Positions 2,885 through 11,749 of a DNA stretch of 35,772 nt are shown in pieces (position 1 is the stretch's first letter; each line of letters opens with the position of its first letter). The stretch spans positions 1 through 35,772 of the IMG/VR virus record IMGVR_UViG_3300009187_000045. One strand, 5' to 3'. The notes under the pieces are model-generated. The model was not told where the DNA came from. It ran no database searches and saw only the letters and a list, made by a program, of their open reading frames with translations. This DNA comes from a virus. Position numbers and translations under genes: made by a program.

Positions 2885-3078
2885 AAACCCCTCACTTGCT
2901 TTAGATTCCGACCCGTGATCCTATCGGTCCAGCATGATGCACACAACCACCTGGTCGCACTCATCTCAACCCCACCCTCTGGTGGCTTCTCAATCAAACA
3001 AGCATTACATCTCTGCAATTTATTCCCATGACAGTTGCCATTCAATCTGACCGGATTATTTACAAAATTACTTTTCAT
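2881..3078 (-). CDS. Small zinc-ribbon-like protein (65 aa)
   Basis: The protein has two CxxC knuckles, CNAC at about residues 24-27 and CASC at about 47-50, separated by roughly 20 residues. This is the spacing of a small zinc ribbon. The rest is basic with no membrane segment. It sits directly before the terminase gene; its TGA stop overlaps the GTG start of TerL, and its ATG overlaps the stop of the preceding 53-aa gene. Its function is unknown. A role in DNA binding or packaging is only suggested by position and the zinc-binding look. Confidence 0.75.
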   Translation of the reverse strand: MKSNFVNNPVRLNGNCHGNKLQRCNACLIEKPPEGGVEMSATRWLCASCWTDRITGRNLKQVRGL

Positions 3079-3236
3079 TGGATTCTAGTTATTTTATTAT
3101 GTGGGTGCGTTAACCACTTATCACCTAATAATCTAATCGCTTTAATATATTGTTTCTGATTATGTCTATTCGTGCTACGCGGCACATAATCGACATTGAA
3201 TAAATACCTGACTTTAGTTAATAACGTGATATTCAT
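3075..3236 (-). CDS. Small conserved phage protein (53 aa), easily missed
   Basis: A 53-codon frame starts MNITLLTKVRYLFNVDYVP and contains the string AIRLLGDKWL near the C-terminus. I recall the VPR...N..W/Y...LLGDKWLL pattern as widespread in short phage proteins, usually close to terminase or replication genes. Both ends overlap neighbours as ATGA: its start with the stop of the 54-aa gene, and its stop with the start of the 65-aa gene. That fits this genome's style and argues that this is a gene rather than an intergenic gap. It is basic and tryptophan-containing. Function unknown. Confidence 0.75.
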   Translation of the reverse strand: MNITLLTKVRYLFNVDYVPRSTNRHNQKQYIKAIRLLGDKWLTHPHNKITRIQ

Positions 3237-3398
3237 ATTATCCCTACGATTTTGTTAATCTCGACCCAGACATGCAAAACAGTGCTGCCGTCTGGACTCA
3301 TTAAGGTGCAGAAGACTTTGCCGTCTTTTTCCTCATCGCTGTCAATCACGATCCACTCTTGCCCTTTCAGTACCACTGTCGCTAGTTTAGATTTCATT
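3233..3398 (-). CDS. Small hypothetical protein (54 aa)
   Basis: I place the start at the ATG at 3398 (MKSKLATVVLKGQEWIVID) because it has a GGAG Shine-Dalgarno about 8 nt upstream. An upstream ATG at 3436 would have no such site. The product is short and probably beta-rich, with alternating hydrophobic residues and a TVLHVWVEI segment. It is the first gene after the 313-bp non-coding stretch, so it may open the TerL transcript. The stop overlaps the next start (ATGA). I do not recognise a family. Confidence 0.65.
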
Positions 3399-3711
3399 CG
3401 TTTACTCCGTTGTTTGTGGAGTTGACATTTTTGCACAATTTGACTTAGTTGTTACTTTTTTAAAAAATTTTTTTTGTAGGTGTTTAGTGCCGCCACAGTC
3501 GCCCCCGCCAAGCCGGCCACGGGGGGGGTCGCGGCCACCGACCGCCAGCTGGCCACCACCGACTTGTCCCCAGATTTTGGCCAACTTTATCCACAGATTC
3601 CTGTGCATAAGTAGGTCTGTAATACTTTAATGCACTTAATTCTGTGGATAACGAGTTATCCACTTAACATAATGATCGTTGTATAAAGTGACTGAATCAT
3701 TTGGTATTCGT
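3399..3711. other. Non-coding segment with AT tract, GC-rich island and DnaA boxes
   Basis: This 313-bp gap holds no convincing gene. From left to right it has a homopolymeric AT stretch (T and A runs, 3455-3475), a GC-rich island with an 8-G run at 3521-3528 (about 3487-3560), and then DnaA-type boxes at 3587-3664. The juxtaposition of an AT-rich, easily melted tract and DnaA boxes suggests replication initiation or a regulatory region. A 68-codon minus frame (3402-3608) and a shorter frame in the GC-rich island exist, but neither has a ribosome site. The promoter for the TerL transcript probably lies here, but no single hexamer pair stands out. Confidence 0.6.
3587..3664. promoter_or_regulatory. 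Cluster of four DnaA-box-like 9-mers
   Basis: Within 78 bp there are TTATCCACA (3587-3595), TGTGCATAA (3602-3610, reverse of TTATGCACA), TGTGGATAA (3643-3651, reverse of TTATCCACA) and TTATCCACT (3656-3664, one mismatch). Three of these match the bacterial DnaA-box consensus TTATNCACA exactly. The last two face each other around a short spacer. They lie just downstream of TerS in non-coding DNA, near an AT-only stretch. Binding by host DnaA is inference. Confidence 0.7.
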
Positions 3712-4200
3712 TTATGCAGAATCGTCTGGTAGTACGACAGTGCGCTTGCGCAGTGCATCGAGCGCCATGCTTCCAAGGTCGATATTGACCAGGGGTTGCT
3801 GCTTGTCTGAGAACTCTTCAGAGAGCTTAGAGGCCAGCCAGGCGCGCCTGTCACAGCGTAGCTTGGCCAGCTGCACCTCTTGGATGGTGGCCGCGTCTGC
3901 AATGTCGATGGTTTGTTCTGCTAAACTTTGTGCTGCTCGCGTGCGTGCGCGTGCGTATGCGGCCTTGCGTGCCTCACCGCCTCTCTCGACCCATCTGTCA
4001 AACGTGGTGTTCCCCACCCCCAATACCTTGCACAGCGCGGAGATCGTGCCGCCACTGGCAATGAATTCAAGGATGGCATCTTCACCACCAAACTTGTGGA
4101 TGGCCTTGTTAGCCACGCTGATCTCAGCTTTCTTTGCTTGAGCTGCCATGATATTCACAGCGCCTTGGTCGGCTATTTCAGCCAATGTGTTTCGTGCCAT
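3712..4200 (-). CDS. terS: Terminase small subunit-like DNA-binding protein
   Basis: This is a 162-residue protein. An N-terminal helix-turn-helix region (around residues 45-75, with ASGGTISALCKVLGVGNTTF) is followed by a WVERGGEARKAAYARAR helix and a KLRCDRRAWLASKLSEEFSDK segment. That order is typical of one phage small-terminase family, which recognises the packaging site and stimulates TerL. The start is set by a GAGGA upstream. It overlaps the 3' end of the VRR-NUC gene by 23 nt. It is separated from TerL by the DnaA-box segment and three tiny genes, which is unusual but not rare. An alternative is another HTH regulator. Confidence 0.75.
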   Translation of the reverse strand: MARNTLAEIADQGAVNIMAAQAKKAEISVANKAIHKFGGEDAILEFIASGGTISALCKVLGVGNTTFDRWVERGGEARKAAYARARTRAAQSLAEQTIDIADAATIQEVQLAKLRCDRRAWLASKLSEEFSDKQQPLVNIDLGSMALDALRKRTVVLPDDSA

Positions 4201-4561
4201 TCAAGTAATCCTCAATGATTTTGATTGCATCTGGCGCTGATCGTGAGACCAGGCACAGATATCCTTTTGCGTTTAACTGCAAACCCACAGAGCTTTGTTT
4301 GCCTGATACCACTCCGGCCTTGGTCTTCATCTCAATGAAAAGCCCGTGAAAGCCGTTTTTAGGCTCTAAGACGCACAGATCAGGCATCCCTGCTAAAACC
4401 CCTTCAGAATGCAATCTGACGCGCTCTGAAGCGCTTCTATCGCCTCCATTGGGTATTGCTGCAATGATGACCTCCGGATAGAACGCTCGAACGTGTTGCA
4501 CCACCTTGACCTGGTCAATGTGTTCAATGCTTTTGCGCTTGCGCTTTATGTCAACCACCAT
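4178..4561 (-). CDS. VRR-NUC domain nuclease (127 aa)
   Basis: The chain contains the PD-(D/E)XK-type signature of the VRR-NUC family: PNGG at residues 37-40, a GMPDL motif with D61, FIEMKTKAG giving E77 and K79, then the conserved Gln of SGKQSS. Stand-alone phage VRR-NUC proteins cleave branched DNA such as Holliday junctions, so a role in resolving replication or packaging intermediates is likely. I chose the ATG at 4561, where homology begins. An upstream in-frame ATG at 4684 would add 41 residues that overlap the previous gene. It overlaps both neighbours by 16-23 nt. Confidence 0.85.
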   Translation of the reverse strand: MVVDIKRKRKSIEHIDQVKVVQHVRAFYPEVIIAAIPNGGDRSASERVRLHSEGVLAGMPDLCVLEPKNGFHGLFIEMKTKAGVVSGKQSSVGLQLNAKGYLCLVSRSAPDAIKIIEDYLNGTKHIG

Positions 4562-4890
4562 GCCTCGGATTCTACTGCCGTGGCTTTGGTCTGGAACATG
4601 TGGCATCGGTGTTTGACATCGGTTGGGAATGCAGCCAGTCCCGTTTGGCTGCACTGATGTTCGGACCATGTGACTGTTGCCCATCCATTCCTAATCTTTG
4701 CCTGGTCAAACATCCACTGCAATGGCTTTGAGTTGACCTTCCTGTGCCTTTCCATCTGCTCGGCTGGCATGGATTGCTTCATGTCCACTTCTACCGCTTT
4801 ACTGCACTGGTGGCAGAAAACGCGCTCATCTTCGACCCATTTATCAGATTGTGGATAACCTGTGGATAACTGTTCAACTTGTTGGACCAT
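4546..4890 (-). CDS. Small Cys/His-containing hypothetical protein (114 aa)
   Basis: The start at 4890 has a clear GGAG Shine-Dalgarno 8 nt upstream. Cysteine/histidine pairs occur at FCHQC, EHQC and KHRCH, consistent with a zinc-binding fold, though no named domain is recognised. Codons for LSTGYPQ near the N-terminus form two consecutive DnaA-box 9-mers in the DNA, so this gene's 5' end doubles as a possible cis element. It is the first gene downstream of the iteron array and precedes the nuclease. Function unknown; a replication accessory role is suggested only by position. Confidence 0.65.
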   Translation of the reverse strand: MVQQVEQLSTGYPQSDKWVEDERVFCHQCSKAVEVDMKQSMPAEQMERHRKVNSKPLQWMFDQAKIRNGWATVTWSEHQCSQTGLAAFPTDVKHRCHMFQTKATAVESEAWWLT

Positions 4891-5001
4891 TGCTTTTCTC
4901 CAAAAAGGGTCAAAAGTAAACCGGTATGACCAAAGGAAATCTACCGGTTTACCTGTTTACTTTTCACTATCCCAAAACTGACCAGATTGGCCTGTGGATA
5001 A
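4850..5001. promoter_or_regulatory. Second DnaA-box group (three perfect 9-mers)
   Basis: TGTGGATAA (reverse of TTATCCACA) occurs exactly at 4850-4858, 4861-4869 and 4993-5001. The first two are spaced 11 bp start to start and lie inside the 5' coding part of the 114-aa gene. The third lies among the 11-bp iterons. All three point the same way. Together with the group at 3587-3664 they make seven boxes within 1.4 kb. Confidence 0.7.
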
Positions 5002-5096
5002 GTGGGTCTTCGACCCCCACTTATACCAACAGACCTGCCATTATCTAAACCGGTATACCGCTTTACTACCGGTTTACTACCGGTTTACCGGTTTAC
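4916..5096. repeat. 11-bp iteron array (TACCGGTTTAC and its complement)
   Basis: Exact copies of TACCGGTTTAC are at 4942-4952, 5067-5077, 5078-5088 and 5086-5096 (the last overlapping by three bases). An exact inverted copy is at 4916-4926. One-mismatch copies are at 5045-5055 (inverted) and 5056-5066, and a half copy follows at about 4953-4960. The unit contains the palindrome ACCGGT. The array fills the gap between the primase-helicase stop codon and the next gene, and brackets a DnaA box. Iterons beside DnaA boxes and a helicase-primase gene are typical of theta-type origins. Use as an operator cluster is the alternative. Confidence 0.85.
4998..5024. other. Hairpin within origin candidate
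   Basis: The inverted repeat ATAAGTGGGTC (4998-5008) pairs with 5012-5024 around a 3-nt loop, with two extra C residues on the right arm. No T tract follows on either strand, so a rho-independent terminator is unlikely. It sits between the two iteron groups and overlaps the DnaA box at 4993-5001. A cruciform or single-strand initiation structure is possible. Confidence 0.5.
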
Positions 5097-7267
5097 TTTA
5101 TTTGAACCCATCCGCTGTCTGCTTGGCCCATTGCAAAGCGCTGGAATATGGCCGCGCTGACGGCCTTTCTTGCATAGCTTTGGTCGGCCATTGGCACGGC
5201 CTGATAGATGTCAGCCCACTCCAGCTGGTGCATTGATTGCAGTTCTTTTGGGACACTTGGCCGCCCTGACCCTCTTCGCATAATGACCGCGCCTTTGGCG
5301 TTGATGATGGACTGGACAAAGTTGCAGGCAGCGTCACACGCATCTTGGACTTGTTGCTGCTTTTTGTCGTTCTGCCGGTCGTTGGCTGCCTGCCTTCGGT
5401 CATCTTCCGAGGACATGGCTGGCACGACCAGCAGCACCATCTGCTCTTGGATATCCCCGTCTTCATCCAGCACAGTGTCGGCAAAGACATCACTTTGGAA
5501 TTTAATTTCTCTGAAGTTGGGCTGGTAACGGGTTTTGACCAGACGCATATATCGGGTCTTGGTCTCATCTTCAAACAAAATTCCCGTGAGAGTTGCATCA
5601 CCTGTGAATGCAGAAGCTCCACGGGCTGTGGCATCTGAGTCTGACTTTGATATGGTCTTGTTGGTGTGGGTAATGATGCAGACTGGCGTGTCCAGTTGGA
5701 TGTAGATGGTCTGCTTTAAGGCGGCAATATATGCACCCACTTCTGAGTTGTCATTCTCATTATCAATATCCATTGTCGCGTTTGCAGTATCTAATACCAA
5801 TAATGGCCGGACATTATCTATTGTGTGGTGAATCACATTATGTGCGAGCATGAGTAAATCTTTAACATTAGATCTCTTGGCATCGATGATGACAAACCAG
5901 TCTGATAATGCATTGGCACTAATCCCATAATGCCGCGCATAGCCTGTCAGGGTTCTTTCGACTTGGTCCGAGTCTTCAGTGACTATGATTGTTTTGCGTT
6001 TCTTGGTGGCAGTGAGTTCGCAGTCTTTGGCCTTTAGACCGGCCATGACCATGCACAGACTGATGACTGCTGTGGTCTTGCCAATGCCAGGCTGACCGGC
6101 CAGCACCATGAAACTATGCGCCCAAAAGCCTTTGACCATGTAGCGGATGGGTCTGATCTGGCCAATGGATAGCTGGCGTTCTGGCCAGCCTTTGGTCTCT
6201 TTTTGCGCTTCAGTTTGCGCTTCAGTTTGGCCAATCACAGCTGCAAAGTCTTCAACCGCTGACTTGCGCTCGGCCTGTTTGGTTGGAGCTTCCCACCCGC
6301 AGTCCTTGGCGTGCTTGAACAGTGTGCCAATGCCAACACCTTTACCTTGGTGAAAGCTCTTCCAGTGGACTTCAATGTCTTTCGTGCCTTCGTATTTGAT
6401 CCCACCTTGGGACCATGTATCCCATAAGCTACAACCTTGCTCTCCAAATTCTGAATGCAGAGCCTGACCGATCTCAATCCACTGGTCATAGTCACAGTCT
6501 GGGCTAATGTGCTGCAAAGCCTGCGCAGCCTTGGCCATTTCATCTGGCGCGCCTTTGGACAACATAGTTGTGAAGTCAAATGGTTTTGTAGCTACAACTT
6601 GCGGCTTTGGCTCTTGCAGCTGATGCTGCTCAATGATGCCCCAGTCCATTAACAATTCATGCAAATTGACGGCCTCTTGGAATTCACCGACCAATTGCTT
6701 GCCACTGAGTAAGACTGACTTGCCGGCACTGTTTGGCAGGCCAAATACCTCAAGCTCTTGGCCACCACCGAGTTTGTACTTCGGCAGCACTTGGTCAGAT
6801 TCTTTGGGTGGTTGGACCCACAAGAAGACATGACGACCACGGCCTGAGACAGAAACCTCGGTCAGCATCTGCTTTTGTTTCACATACTTGGCCATGCGCT
6901 GAATGGCCACATTGGTGGGTCCTGATGCGTGCTTCATGTCCACATCAAGGCAAACCAAATAGTTCCCTGATGGGCTGATGATGGGGCGCTGCTGGACTAA
7001 GCCAAGATATTGGCCATGTGGGGCCTCTTCCATGGTCCAGACATCTTCAGCGCTGTACAGATCGCTTGGGTCTGTATCCCGTGCCACACCTTGGCCAGAT
7101 CGCTTGTAGGGGATTTTTTTGGAGCCTTGCAGGGCAAAGGTGCAGAAGACGGCATCGGGGGCCACAGCGCCTATTTTGCAGGCGACAGACTGGGACTGAG
7201 AGAACGTGTCGTTTTGGGGTGTTTCAGTTATGATTGGCACTGAAATTCCTTTTGTTGGGGGTTTCAT
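5093..7267 (-). CDS. Bifunctional primase (AEP)-helicase replication protein
   Basis: This 724-residue multidomain protein starts with an N-terminal archaeo-eukaryotic primase/polymerase fold: the catalytic DVD at 108-110 and SGRGRH at 141-146. A PriCT-2-type segment follows (about 242-325, with YDQWIEIGQALH). The C-terminal RepA/RecA-like AAA ATPase has GQPGIGKTT at 391-399, Walker B LLVLDT at 489-494 and THTNK at 533-537. It would unwind DNA and lay primers at the phage fork. Its stop codon lies inside the iteron array. A hairpin sits just ahead of its ribosome site. No family-B or family-A DNA polymerase is visible in the window, so host polymerase is presumably recruited. Confidence 0.92.
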   Translation of the reverse strand: MKPPTKGISVPIITETPQNDTFSQSQSVACKIGAVAPDAVFCTFALQGSKKIPYKRSGQGVARDTDPSDLYSAEDVWTMEEAPHGQYLGLVQQRPIISPSGNYLVCLDVDMKHASGPTNVAIQRMAKYVKQKQMLTEVSVSGRGRHVFLWVQPPKESDQVLPKYKLGGGQELEVFGLPNSAGKSVLLSGKQLVGEFQEAVNLHELLMDWGIIEQHQLQEPKPQVVATKPFDFTTMLSKGAPDEMAKAAQALQHISPDCDYDQWIEIGQALHSEFGEQGCSLWDTWSQGGIKYEGTKDIEVHWKSFHQGKGVGIGTLFKHAKDCGWEAPTKQAERKSAVEDFAAVIGQTEAQTEAQKETKGWPERQLSIGQIRPIRYMVKGFWAHSFMVLAGQPGIGKTTAVISLCMVMAGLKAKDCELTATKKRKTIIVTEDSDQVERTLTGYARHYGISANALSDWFVIIDAKRSNVKDLLMLAHNVIHHTIDNVRPLLVLDTANATMDIDNENDNSEVGAYIAALKQTIYIQLDTPVCIITHTNKTISKSDSDATARGASAFTGDATLTGILFEDETKTRYMRLVKTRYQPNFREIKFQSDVFADTVLDEDGDIQEQMVLLVVPAMSSEDDRRQAANDRQNDKKQQQVQDACDAACNFVQSIINAKGAVIMRRGSGRPSVPKELQSMHQLEWADIYQAVPMADQSYARKAVSAAIFQRFAMGQADSGWVQIK

Positions 7268-10681: not shown

Positions 10682-10959
10682 AATACAATCCAACCCCATT
10701 TTGCCCTGTGGACCTTTTGCTGTTTGTCTGCTGCATTGAAGATGTTGAACTGGTTTGCTTCTTGGAATACAGCCCAGAAGAAAAGGGATCAGTTGATTCT
10801 TATGGCGCACCTTATGAGCCAAATATTGATGAGTGCATGACGCTGAATAACGCATACATCGCTGGCACTGATGTGGATATTGCCCACATGATTTTGCAAA
10901 GCATGGTGGACCACATTGAGGTGACTGCGCTGGAGAAGTTTAAGGATGGTGATGAATGA
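10678..10959 (+). CDS. Hypothetical phage protein (93 aa)
   Basis: The product begins at GTG (VKYNPTPFCPVDLLLF) if the GTGA overlap with the preceding gene is used. An ATG at 10666 in the same frame is the alternative and would add four residues. It contains CFLEYSPEEKGSVDSYG, DECMTLNNAYIAGTDV and a C-terminal EALEKF-like helix, features I recall from short phage proteins of unknown function encoded near replication genes. It is acidic. Its stop overlaps both downstream starts at 10952 and 10956. Confidence 0.7.
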   Translation: MKYNPTPFCPVDLLLFVCCIEDVELVCFLEYSPEEKGSVDSYGAPYEPNIDECMTLNNAYIAGTDVDIAHMILQSMVDHIEVTALEKFKDGDE

Positions 10960-11749
10960 GCTGGCTCTTTTCGCAGGCGCTGGTGGTGGAATACTTGGGG
11001 GAAAACTTCTCGGATGGCGCACAGTCTGCGCAGTCGAATGGGAGCCATACCCAGCAAGCGTATTGTGCGCCAGACAAAATGACGGCATTCTTGCGCCTTT
11101 CCCGATTTGGGATGACGTACAAACCTTTGACGGCCACCCATGGCGAGGCATTGTTGATGTCGTATCTGGCGGCTTTCCCTGCCAAGACATCTCAGCCGCG
11201 GGGGGGGGGGCTGGAATTGATGGTGCAAAAAGCTCAATGTGGAAACACATGGCCAGAATCATTAGCGAAGTGGGACCAAGATTCGTGTTCGTGGAAAACA
11301 GCCCAATGCTCACTTCTCGGGGACTTGGAGTTGTTCTCGGGGACTTGGCCCAAATGGGGTTTGATGCGAAATGGGGAGTCTTGGGCGCAGACCTCACTGG
11401 TGCAGCGCATAGGCGGGACAGAATTTGGCTGGTTGCCTACGCCAACAGCATCCGACTGGATGACTGGGAAAGTGAATGGAATCGAACACCGAAACAGAAG
11501 ATTCATTCGGACCAGTCTGACAAGTGGGACAGAATTTGGAGCAAATCTAAGGGATGCGTTTCGTTTGATGACTGGAAAAGCCTTGCCACCGAATTTCTCA
11601 GAATGGATGATGGGATGGCCAATAGGATGGACCGACTTAAAGCCATTGGAAATGGACAAGTGCCAGTAGTGGCAGAAAAAGCATGGAAAACATTAAATGA
11701 ATCAAGACCTACCCCCCGCCATCGATGCCTGCCTCGACCTAATCAATGA
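10952..11749 (+). CDS. C5-cytosine DNA methyltransferase (265 aa)
   Basis: Ordered m5C-methyltransferase motifs are present: motif I LFAGAGGG (near residues 6-13), motif IV GGFPCQDIS with the catalytic Cys (about 77), motif VI VENSP (about 114), motif VIII AHRRDRIW (about 153) and motif X AIGNGQVPVV (about 231). It would methylate phage DNA, probably against host restriction or at regulatory sites. The region between VIII and X is short, so the target-recognition domain is minimal. Codons just after motif IV lie in an 11-G tract; the frame is intact as read. A second 237-codon ORF overlaps it in another frame. The start is ATG 10952 or 10946. Confidence 0.9.
   Translation: MNELALFAGAGGGILGGKLLGWRTVCAVEWEPYPASVLCARQNDGILAPFPIWDDVQTFDGHPWRGIVDVVSGGFPCQDISAAGGGAGIDGAKSSMWKHMARIISEVGPRFVFVENSPMLTSRGLGVVLGDLAQMGFDAKWGVLGADLTGAAHRRDRIWLVAYANSIRLDDWESEWNRTPKQKIHSDQSDKWDRIWSKSKGCVSFDDWKSLATEFLRMDDGMANRMDRLKAIGNGQVPVVAEKAWKTLNESRPTPRHRCLPRPNQ
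10956..11669 (+). CDS. Overlapping-frame protein inside the methyltransferase gene (237 aa)
   Basis: An open frame of 237 codons lies fully within the methyltransferase, shifted by one base. It starts MSWLFSQALVVEYLGENFSD and ends with LPTPTASDW and a GWPIGWTDLKPLEMDKCQ terminus. As I recall, proteins with this N-terminus and the MGWPxGWTDL C-terminus are annotated in many phages and prophages, so this frame seems conserved in its own right. Its ATG overlaps the TGA of the preceding gene (ATGA), exactly the coupled start used elsewhere here. Function unknown. It could be a dual-coded product, or become the C-terminus of the methyltransferase through slippage at the 11-G tract. Confidence 0.6.
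   Translation: MSWLFSQALVVEYLGENFSDGAQSAQSNGSHTQQAYCAPDKMTAFLRLSRFGMTYKPLTATHGEALLMSYLAAFPAKTSQPRGGGLELMVQKAQCGNTWPESLAKWDQDSCSWKTAQCSLLGDLELFSGTWPKWGLMRNGESWAQTSLVQRIGGTEFGWLPTPTASDWMTGKVNGIEHRNRRFIRTSLTSGTEFGANLRDAFRLMTGKALPPNFSEWMMGWPIGWTDLKPLEMDKCQ
11200..11210 (+). repeat. 11-G homopolymer tract inside both overlapping frames
   Basis: Eleven consecutive G residues follow the motif IV codons of the methyltransferase. They encode Gly-Gly-Gly in that frame and are also inside the overlapping frame. Tracts this long are prone to replication or transcription slippage and to sequencing error. In relatives, as far as I recall, this spot reads AGKGAG rather than AGGGAG. Confidence 0.85.

Follow-up and report, generated by a model that had tools for sequence, protein, structure and literature searches.

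Where does replication begin in a phage known only from metagenomes, and which protein recognizes the site? The question is raised by an array of short repeats adjoining the primase-helicase gene of IMG/VR virus record IMGVR_UViG_3300009187_000045, of which we analyzed positions 1 to 35,772 (the window, 35,772 nucleotides). The original prediction had taken the array for a likely replication origin, controlled by iterons as in plasmids. Our results support an origin, and the layout fits; a plasmid-type Rep protein was not found, and the likely initiator is the primase-helicase. Comparison of related genomes leads us to conclude that the array is very probably a theta-type replication origin recognized by the C-terminal domain of the primase-helicase that the phage itself encodes. 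What is new here is the covariation of repeats and protein together with the frozen geometry of the array.

We found five exact copies of GTAAACCGGTA within 181 bp (4916-5096) and none elsewhere in the record. Read as its reverse complement, TACCGGTTTAC, the exact copies lie at 4916-4926 on the minus strand and at 4942-4952, 5067-5077, 5078-5088 and 5086-5096 on the plus strand; copies with one mismatch lie at 4950-4960, 5045-5055 (minus strand) and 5056-5066, and also at 4792-4802, in the next gene and beyond the 181 bp. These exact and mismatch scans confirm the predicted set of at least five exact 11-bp units plus near-exact ones in both orientations. The tandem units at 5067-5096 do abut and overlap, as had been noted, the overlap being 3 bp. 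The array had been placed in the gap behind the primase-helicase, which it indeed adjoins, but it begins inside the gene, overlapping the stop codon. Matches with at most two mismatches number 15 against 3.3 expected, a count reached by none of 100 shuffles. In 60 Markov simulations of the window, the best 11-mer cluster had two copies in 59 and four in one; the array is thus non-random, since no simulation gave five identical 11-mers in 181 bp. Strands below refer to GTAAACCGGTA, and offsets are counted from the start of unit 1.

5086-5096, minus strand: unit 1, GTAAACCGGTA, exact; includes the primase stop codon TAA (5093-5095)
5078-5088, minus strand: unit 2, exact; offset 8
5067-5077, minus strand: unit 3, exact; offset 19
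5056-5066, minus strand: unit 4, GTAAAGCGGTA, one mismatch; offset 30
5045-5055, plus strand: inverted unit ending block 1, one mismatch; forms a palindrome with unit 4
4950-4960, minus strand: block 2 unit, GTAAACAGGTA, one mismatch; offset 136
4942-4952, minus strand: block 2 unit, exact; offset 144
4916-4926, plus strand: block 2 inverted unit, exact; offset 171
4792-4802, minus strand: unit GTAAAGCGGTA within the open reading frame (ORF) 4546-4890; offset 294
4546-4890, minus strand: 114-residue ORF adjoining the array, function not assigned

Some hundred viral contigs carry homologues of the primase-helicase, most of which are 70-95% identical to it; those of clade C, which includes Manatee Spring record MW202879, have about 52% identity. 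The only match among genome contigs is on one contig of a metagenome-assembled genome labelled Acidimicrobium, which may be a stray viral contig. A megablast search with 24 kb found no close cultured phage, its sole match being a methyltransferase gene. Where the regions downstream of the gene in relatives are readable, they show the same layout in different letters, the unit being rewritten at least to TAATGCGGTA, CTAATGCGGAA, TAATCCGGTT and TCGGAGATACC. Between classes, the units within an array change in concert.

Class A/G: GTAAACCGGTA, with CC, GC or CA in the centre
Class T: GTAATGCGGTA
Class B: CTAATGCGGAA
L134 and L195 units: TAATCCGGTT
L235 unit: TAATCCGGTA
Class C: TCGGAGATACC and variants of the form TCGNNGNNACC

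The spacing of the units, unlike their letters, is conserved. A sequence-blind lag scan of 33 distinct representatives gave strong peaks only at 8, 11, 19, 22 and 30 nt, each present in 24-33 of the 33 genomes against a shuffled mean of about 1. Relative to the first unit, unit starts in relatives fall at 0, 8, 19 and 30, with an inverted unit at 40-42 (at 40 or 42 in 23 of the 33 representatives); the second block follows at 136/137 and 144/145, beginning at 136 or 137 in 30 of the 33, with an inverted unit at 167-172 and, in clade C, another at 181. A further unit often lies inside the next gene, at 281-295. One genome (L048) has an extra unit that displaces all downstream units by exactly 11 bp, and L157 seems to have an extra unit too. 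The layout is thus of the iteron type, with several short direct repeats at fixed spacing, and the 136 bp between block starts would correspond to about 13 helical turns. Next to two distant PriCT-2 proteins, of Shewanella plasmid p1 and Caulobacter phage GB2A, repeats are only two-copy or scattered, and therefore do not show that the array architecture reaches this plasmid or this phage.

If a phage protein reads the units, the part of it that gives specificity should change with them. The features on which this expectation bears are the following.

5093-7267, minus strand: primase-helicase, 724 residues, with PriCT_2 at 248-320 and AAA_25 at 361-538 (Pfam); proposed initiator
5093-5455, minus strand: last ~120 codons, winged-helix-like; proposed origin-recognition domain

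Along the region in 73 genomes, the association of sequence with unit class (R of the analysis of similarities, ANOSIM) started at about 0 in the 5′ half of the primase gene, reached about 0.8 across the helicase part and 0.96-1.0 across the final 300 nt and the array, then fell to 0.45 at +200 and to at most 0.1 from +300. Among about 30 shared proteins of 14 near-complete genomes, classes A/G and B were separated with R = 1.00 by the 3′ half of the primase-helicase only, all others giving at most 0.41. The suggested search for the same repeat in relatives thus found its position conserved and its sequence covarying with the primase-helicase C-terminus, and with no other shared phage protein. 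Between classes T and B there are 45 fixed residue differences, all within 601-724, and between A/G and T there are 16, of which 14 lie within 629-718. Class T pairs with A-type helicase domains (L028, L042, L043, L050) as well as with B-type ones (L057, L059, L061, L062), whereas its C-terminus is always of the same kind; these natural recombinants narrow the part that tracks the units to the last ~100 residues. As to the rest of the gene (5453-7267 and its relatives), it is mosaic, residues about 200-300 and 350-600 each existing in two sharply distinct forms, with no link between the form of one segment and that of the other.

The unit inside ORF 4546-4890 lies outside the linked segment and still follows the class change, reading TAATGCGG in seven of eight T genomes and in 0 of the 27 A/G genomes with a copy there (Fisher p 1e-6, uncorrected for kinship). 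It is absent from 12 of 39 A/G genomes and is therefore dispensable. ORF 4546-4890 was itself considered as the unit-binding protein and rejected, as its sequence shows no association with unit class. We also searched 2.9 million viral contigs by DNA only, with a 30-nt piece of the array: of the 37 contigs matched, 32 belong to the primase-homologue set and the other five have the same C-terminus directly upstream. A putative cognate initiator is thus encoded nearby and covaries with the repeat, and the repeats and the C-terminus resemble a lock and its key that are exchanged together.

What kind of domain might read the units? The model of a fragment made up of the last 120 residues shows a long helix and, after it, a small winged-helix-like domain, with helices at fragment positions 16-54, 80-86, 88-91 and 93-107 and strands at 57-61, 76-78 and 115-119, at medium confidence (predicted local distance difference test, pLDDT, 75.6); prediction of the full-length protein was poor (pLDDT 45). 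Structural matches of the fragment (Foldseek, VIA-align) included CRP, CodY, ScpA and FOXO1, at Z 2.7-3.6 and mixed with glutaredoxins; because these matches are weak and mixed, the winged-helix fold is a suggestion only. A Pfam scan of 22 C-terminal fragments gave nothing of note and no RepA_N, nor was RepA_N found on the full protein, although there may be a remote relation; a sequence search of the PDB returned spurious pentatricopeptide matches only.

The array also contains elements other than the units. DnaA boxes had been predicted within and beside it, and this holds: one lies inside and two beside, all on the minus strand. The whole record has five exact boxes, so that three of them are in or beside the array.

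4993-5001, minus strand: DnaA box TTATCCACA, exact, inside the array
4861-4869, minus strand: DnaA box TTATCCACA, exact, beside the array in the first codons of ORF 4546-4890
4850-4858, minus strand: DnaA box TTATCCACA, exact, beside the array in the first codons of ORF 4546-4890
4998-5024, minus strand: hairpin between the two blocks, an inverted repeat whose 3′ arm (minus-strand reading) enters the central DnaA box

In some relatives the DnaA box departs from this form (TTGTCCACA in L025, GTATCCACA in L168). Pairing of the hairpin is predicted in 38 distinct versions, with a mean z of -4.1 against composition shuffles, and is preserved by two-sided changes, for example in L025, L028, L055 and L083, as judged by eye without covariation scoring. 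Clade C has a stem of unrelated sequence (CCTGTGGAGTTATCCACAGG or CTTGGGGATTTTTCCCCAAG) at an unchanged position. The hairpin was considered as a rho-independent terminator and rejected: a T run is absent after it on both strands, so it is not an ordinary intrinsic terminator. By analogy with RSF1010 ssi or pRN1 (PMC4234260), it may be a priming or extrusion site. An Rfam scan of 3000-5600 gave no match.

The position of the array was compared with strand composition. After detrending, the cumulative GC skew of the window is lowest at 5293. In all 19 near-complete genomes the minimum falls within 0.5 kb of the array, at 114-474 bp from the anchor box (G016 and G008 were re-anchored for this comparison), although the position of the array on the contig varies from about 1 to 34 kb. 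A skew change near 5 kb had been proposed as a check, and since the minimum does lie there, the original prediction stands on the point it had itself named as able to overturn it. Counting only fourfold sites in co-directional genes, we find a skew of -0.37 ahead of the array (positive in 0 of 19 genomes), -0.08 and -0.04 in the next 2 kb past it, then +0.35. The switch thus starts at the array and completes further on, near a second DnaA-box region at 3400-3680, and the skew fits both sites. As an aside on the contigs, those of G001-G019 and W01 start at different points of an apparently circular map of 33-39 kb, and G004, G007 and G018 carry direct terminal repeats of 91-127 bp, consistent with circular assembly or permuted ends.

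This second region is non-coding and is flanked on one side by the gene for the terminase small subunit and on the other by the genes that lead to the large subunit. It has an eight-C run and exact DnaA boxes at 3587 and 3643, a separation of 56 bp that most relatives share; it is near-invariant across 12 genomes of classes A/G, T and B, and the pattern was not recovered in G006, G015 or class C. It is a possible second origin, melting site or packaging (pac) site.

Replication might therefore start at 3400-3680, with the array as an accessory such as an enhancer or a copy-control element like P4 crr. The inverted pairs of DnaA-like boxes, the poly-C run and AAAAAAAATTTTTTAAAAAA, nearly invariant in those 12 genomes, speak for this, as do an AT-rich stretch and the fourfold skew that turns positive beyond. 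But the class C genomes searched lack the exact inverted box pair and still have the array and the skew minimum, the region shows no change with initiator class, and its location between terminase genes means that it may be a packaging site. We consider this alternative improbable as a whole, while the region, 1.4 kb away, still competes for the melting site. A further reading takes the array for an operator, by which the primase-helicase C-terminus or another phage protein would regulate the downstream genes or itself while replication starts elsewhere. Operator arrays also show fixed spacing and covariation with their repressor, and the array does lie between two co-directional genes, ahead of the start of ORF 4546-4890; yet the covarying protein is the primase-helicase and not a repressor, the skew minimum is at the array, unit copies extend into coding sequence, and sigma-70-like promoters in 4400-5500 are not above chance (one, at 5257-5284 on the other strand, against 0.8 expected), which makes this quite improbable. 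That the array is a pac site or a centromere-like partition site is barely credible: such sites, too, consist of repeats to which dedicated proteins bind, but unit class is tracked neither by the terminase small subunit (R -0.06) nor by the large subunit (R 0.17), the proteins scanned yielded no partition protein, and the binder that covariation predicts is a replication protein.

Several observations weigh against an origin read by the primase-helicase. Because the C-terminus abuts the array, their association is partly one of physical linkage, and the genomes are related, so that counts are not independent and permutation values are indicative only. The equally close gene on the other side of the array is not associated with unit class, and this sharp loss, together with the helicase recombinants and the in-gene unit, disfavours linkage alone. 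The domain model is of medium confidence, with its weak, mixed matches. No AT-rich unwinding element is evident by eye in 4890-5100, whereas an AT-rich stretch lies at about 3440-3480. The fourfold skew becomes clearly positive only 2 kb downstream, which fits the DnaA-box region at 3.4-3.7 kb equally, and in the window alone the third-codon skew of two downstream genes remains negative.

For an origin recognized by the primase-helicase, the protein binding, looping, DnaA use, melting, priming and direction that we infer could proceed as follows. The C-terminal ~100 residues would bind the ~10-11 bp units, and several copies of the protein would assemble on the two blocks, whose starts are 136 bp apart and which would presumably be brought together by looping. 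This assembly, probably aided by host DnaA at its boxes, would open the DNA; the helicase part would then be loaded and the primase part would make the first primer, possibly on the extruded hairpin, before host or phage replication proteins take over. The initiator domain and the array would form one exchangeable cassette, so that specificity could be switched with the geometry unchanged. More tentatively, the unit classes may be mutually exclusive (orthogonal) initiator-origin pairs. Phages of one group that circulate together would exchange the last ~100 codons plus array as a cassette, with superinfecting relatives, satellites or nucleases directed at the origin as the selective pressure and with the geometry of the initiation complex frozen; we regard this as an open bet, somewhat short of even.

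Parts of this arrangement have known counterparts. In P4, primase, helicase and a winged-helix domain for binding origin repeats are all parts of the alpha protein (PMC4234260), and here too a single polypeptide would recognize repeats (ori/crr iterons in P4), unwind and prime. Here, however, PriCT-2 replaces Toprim and AAA_25 replaces SF3, the array includes DnaA boxes and a hairpin, and the unit is rewritten between relatives; as Pfam found only PriCT_2 and AAA_25 in the primase-helicase, and neither Toprim nor an SF3 helicase, its domain content places it outside the P4 alpha family. For RepA and ori of PLE, a Vibrio cholerae satellite, covariation of DNA-binding domain and origin was shown experimentally to mean functional pairing (PMC8263062). 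Here likewise the C-terminal domain covaries with the origin and the rest of the protein does not (T vs B, A/G vs T), but PLE uses the N-terminal domain of a RepA_N protein and three ~30-bp semi-palindromic iterons, as opposed to the C-terminal domain of the phage's own primase-helicase and 10-11 bp units in a fixed 8/11/136 geometry.

The pRN1 protein ORF904 and its counterpart in Bordetella phage BIP-1 are primase-helicases with a C-terminal winged helix (here from a model only), that of BIP-1 also having PriCT-2 (PMC4234260). Their proposed origin has a stem-loop just downstream of the gene (PMC4234260), but theirs is an SF3 helicase with a large stem-loop and no iterons, and for pRN1 no specific binding was detected (PMC4234260). 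The oriV of the IncQ plasmid RSF1010 resembles the array in having iterons and hairpins used by the plasmid's own primase and own helicase (PMC4234260). There RepA, RepB′ and RepC are separate and RepC binds the iterons, whereas primase and helicase are here in one 724-residue protein; being one polypeptide, this is not an IncQ system. The plasmids RK2, F and P1 likewise have direct repeats together with DnaA boxes, and their cooperative Rep binding depends on helical phase (PMC4980987). Their iterons are longer (17-22 bp), and they rely on a dedicated winged-helix Rep that recruits the host helicase and on an AT-rich origin element.

Elsewhere in the window, the 11-mer AGCAATGCACC occurs four times, scattered in the late region (16233, 23742, 28329 and 28452), and a C-5 cytosine methyltransferase gene (10946-11749), present only in some relatives, has in its first part 82% DNA identity to a gene in two Manatee Spring phage records.

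Taken together, these results point to a likely origin in about a hundred contigs of uncultured freshwater phages and would add a primase/helicase combination to P4-like replication start. In this freshwater phage group, known here only from metagenomes, they provide a natural series of matched origin/initiator variants at constant geometry, which allows one to ask how an initiator can move to a new target while its initiation complex stays intact and which residues set specificity, and to predict which phages or satellites may be able to share replication machinery.
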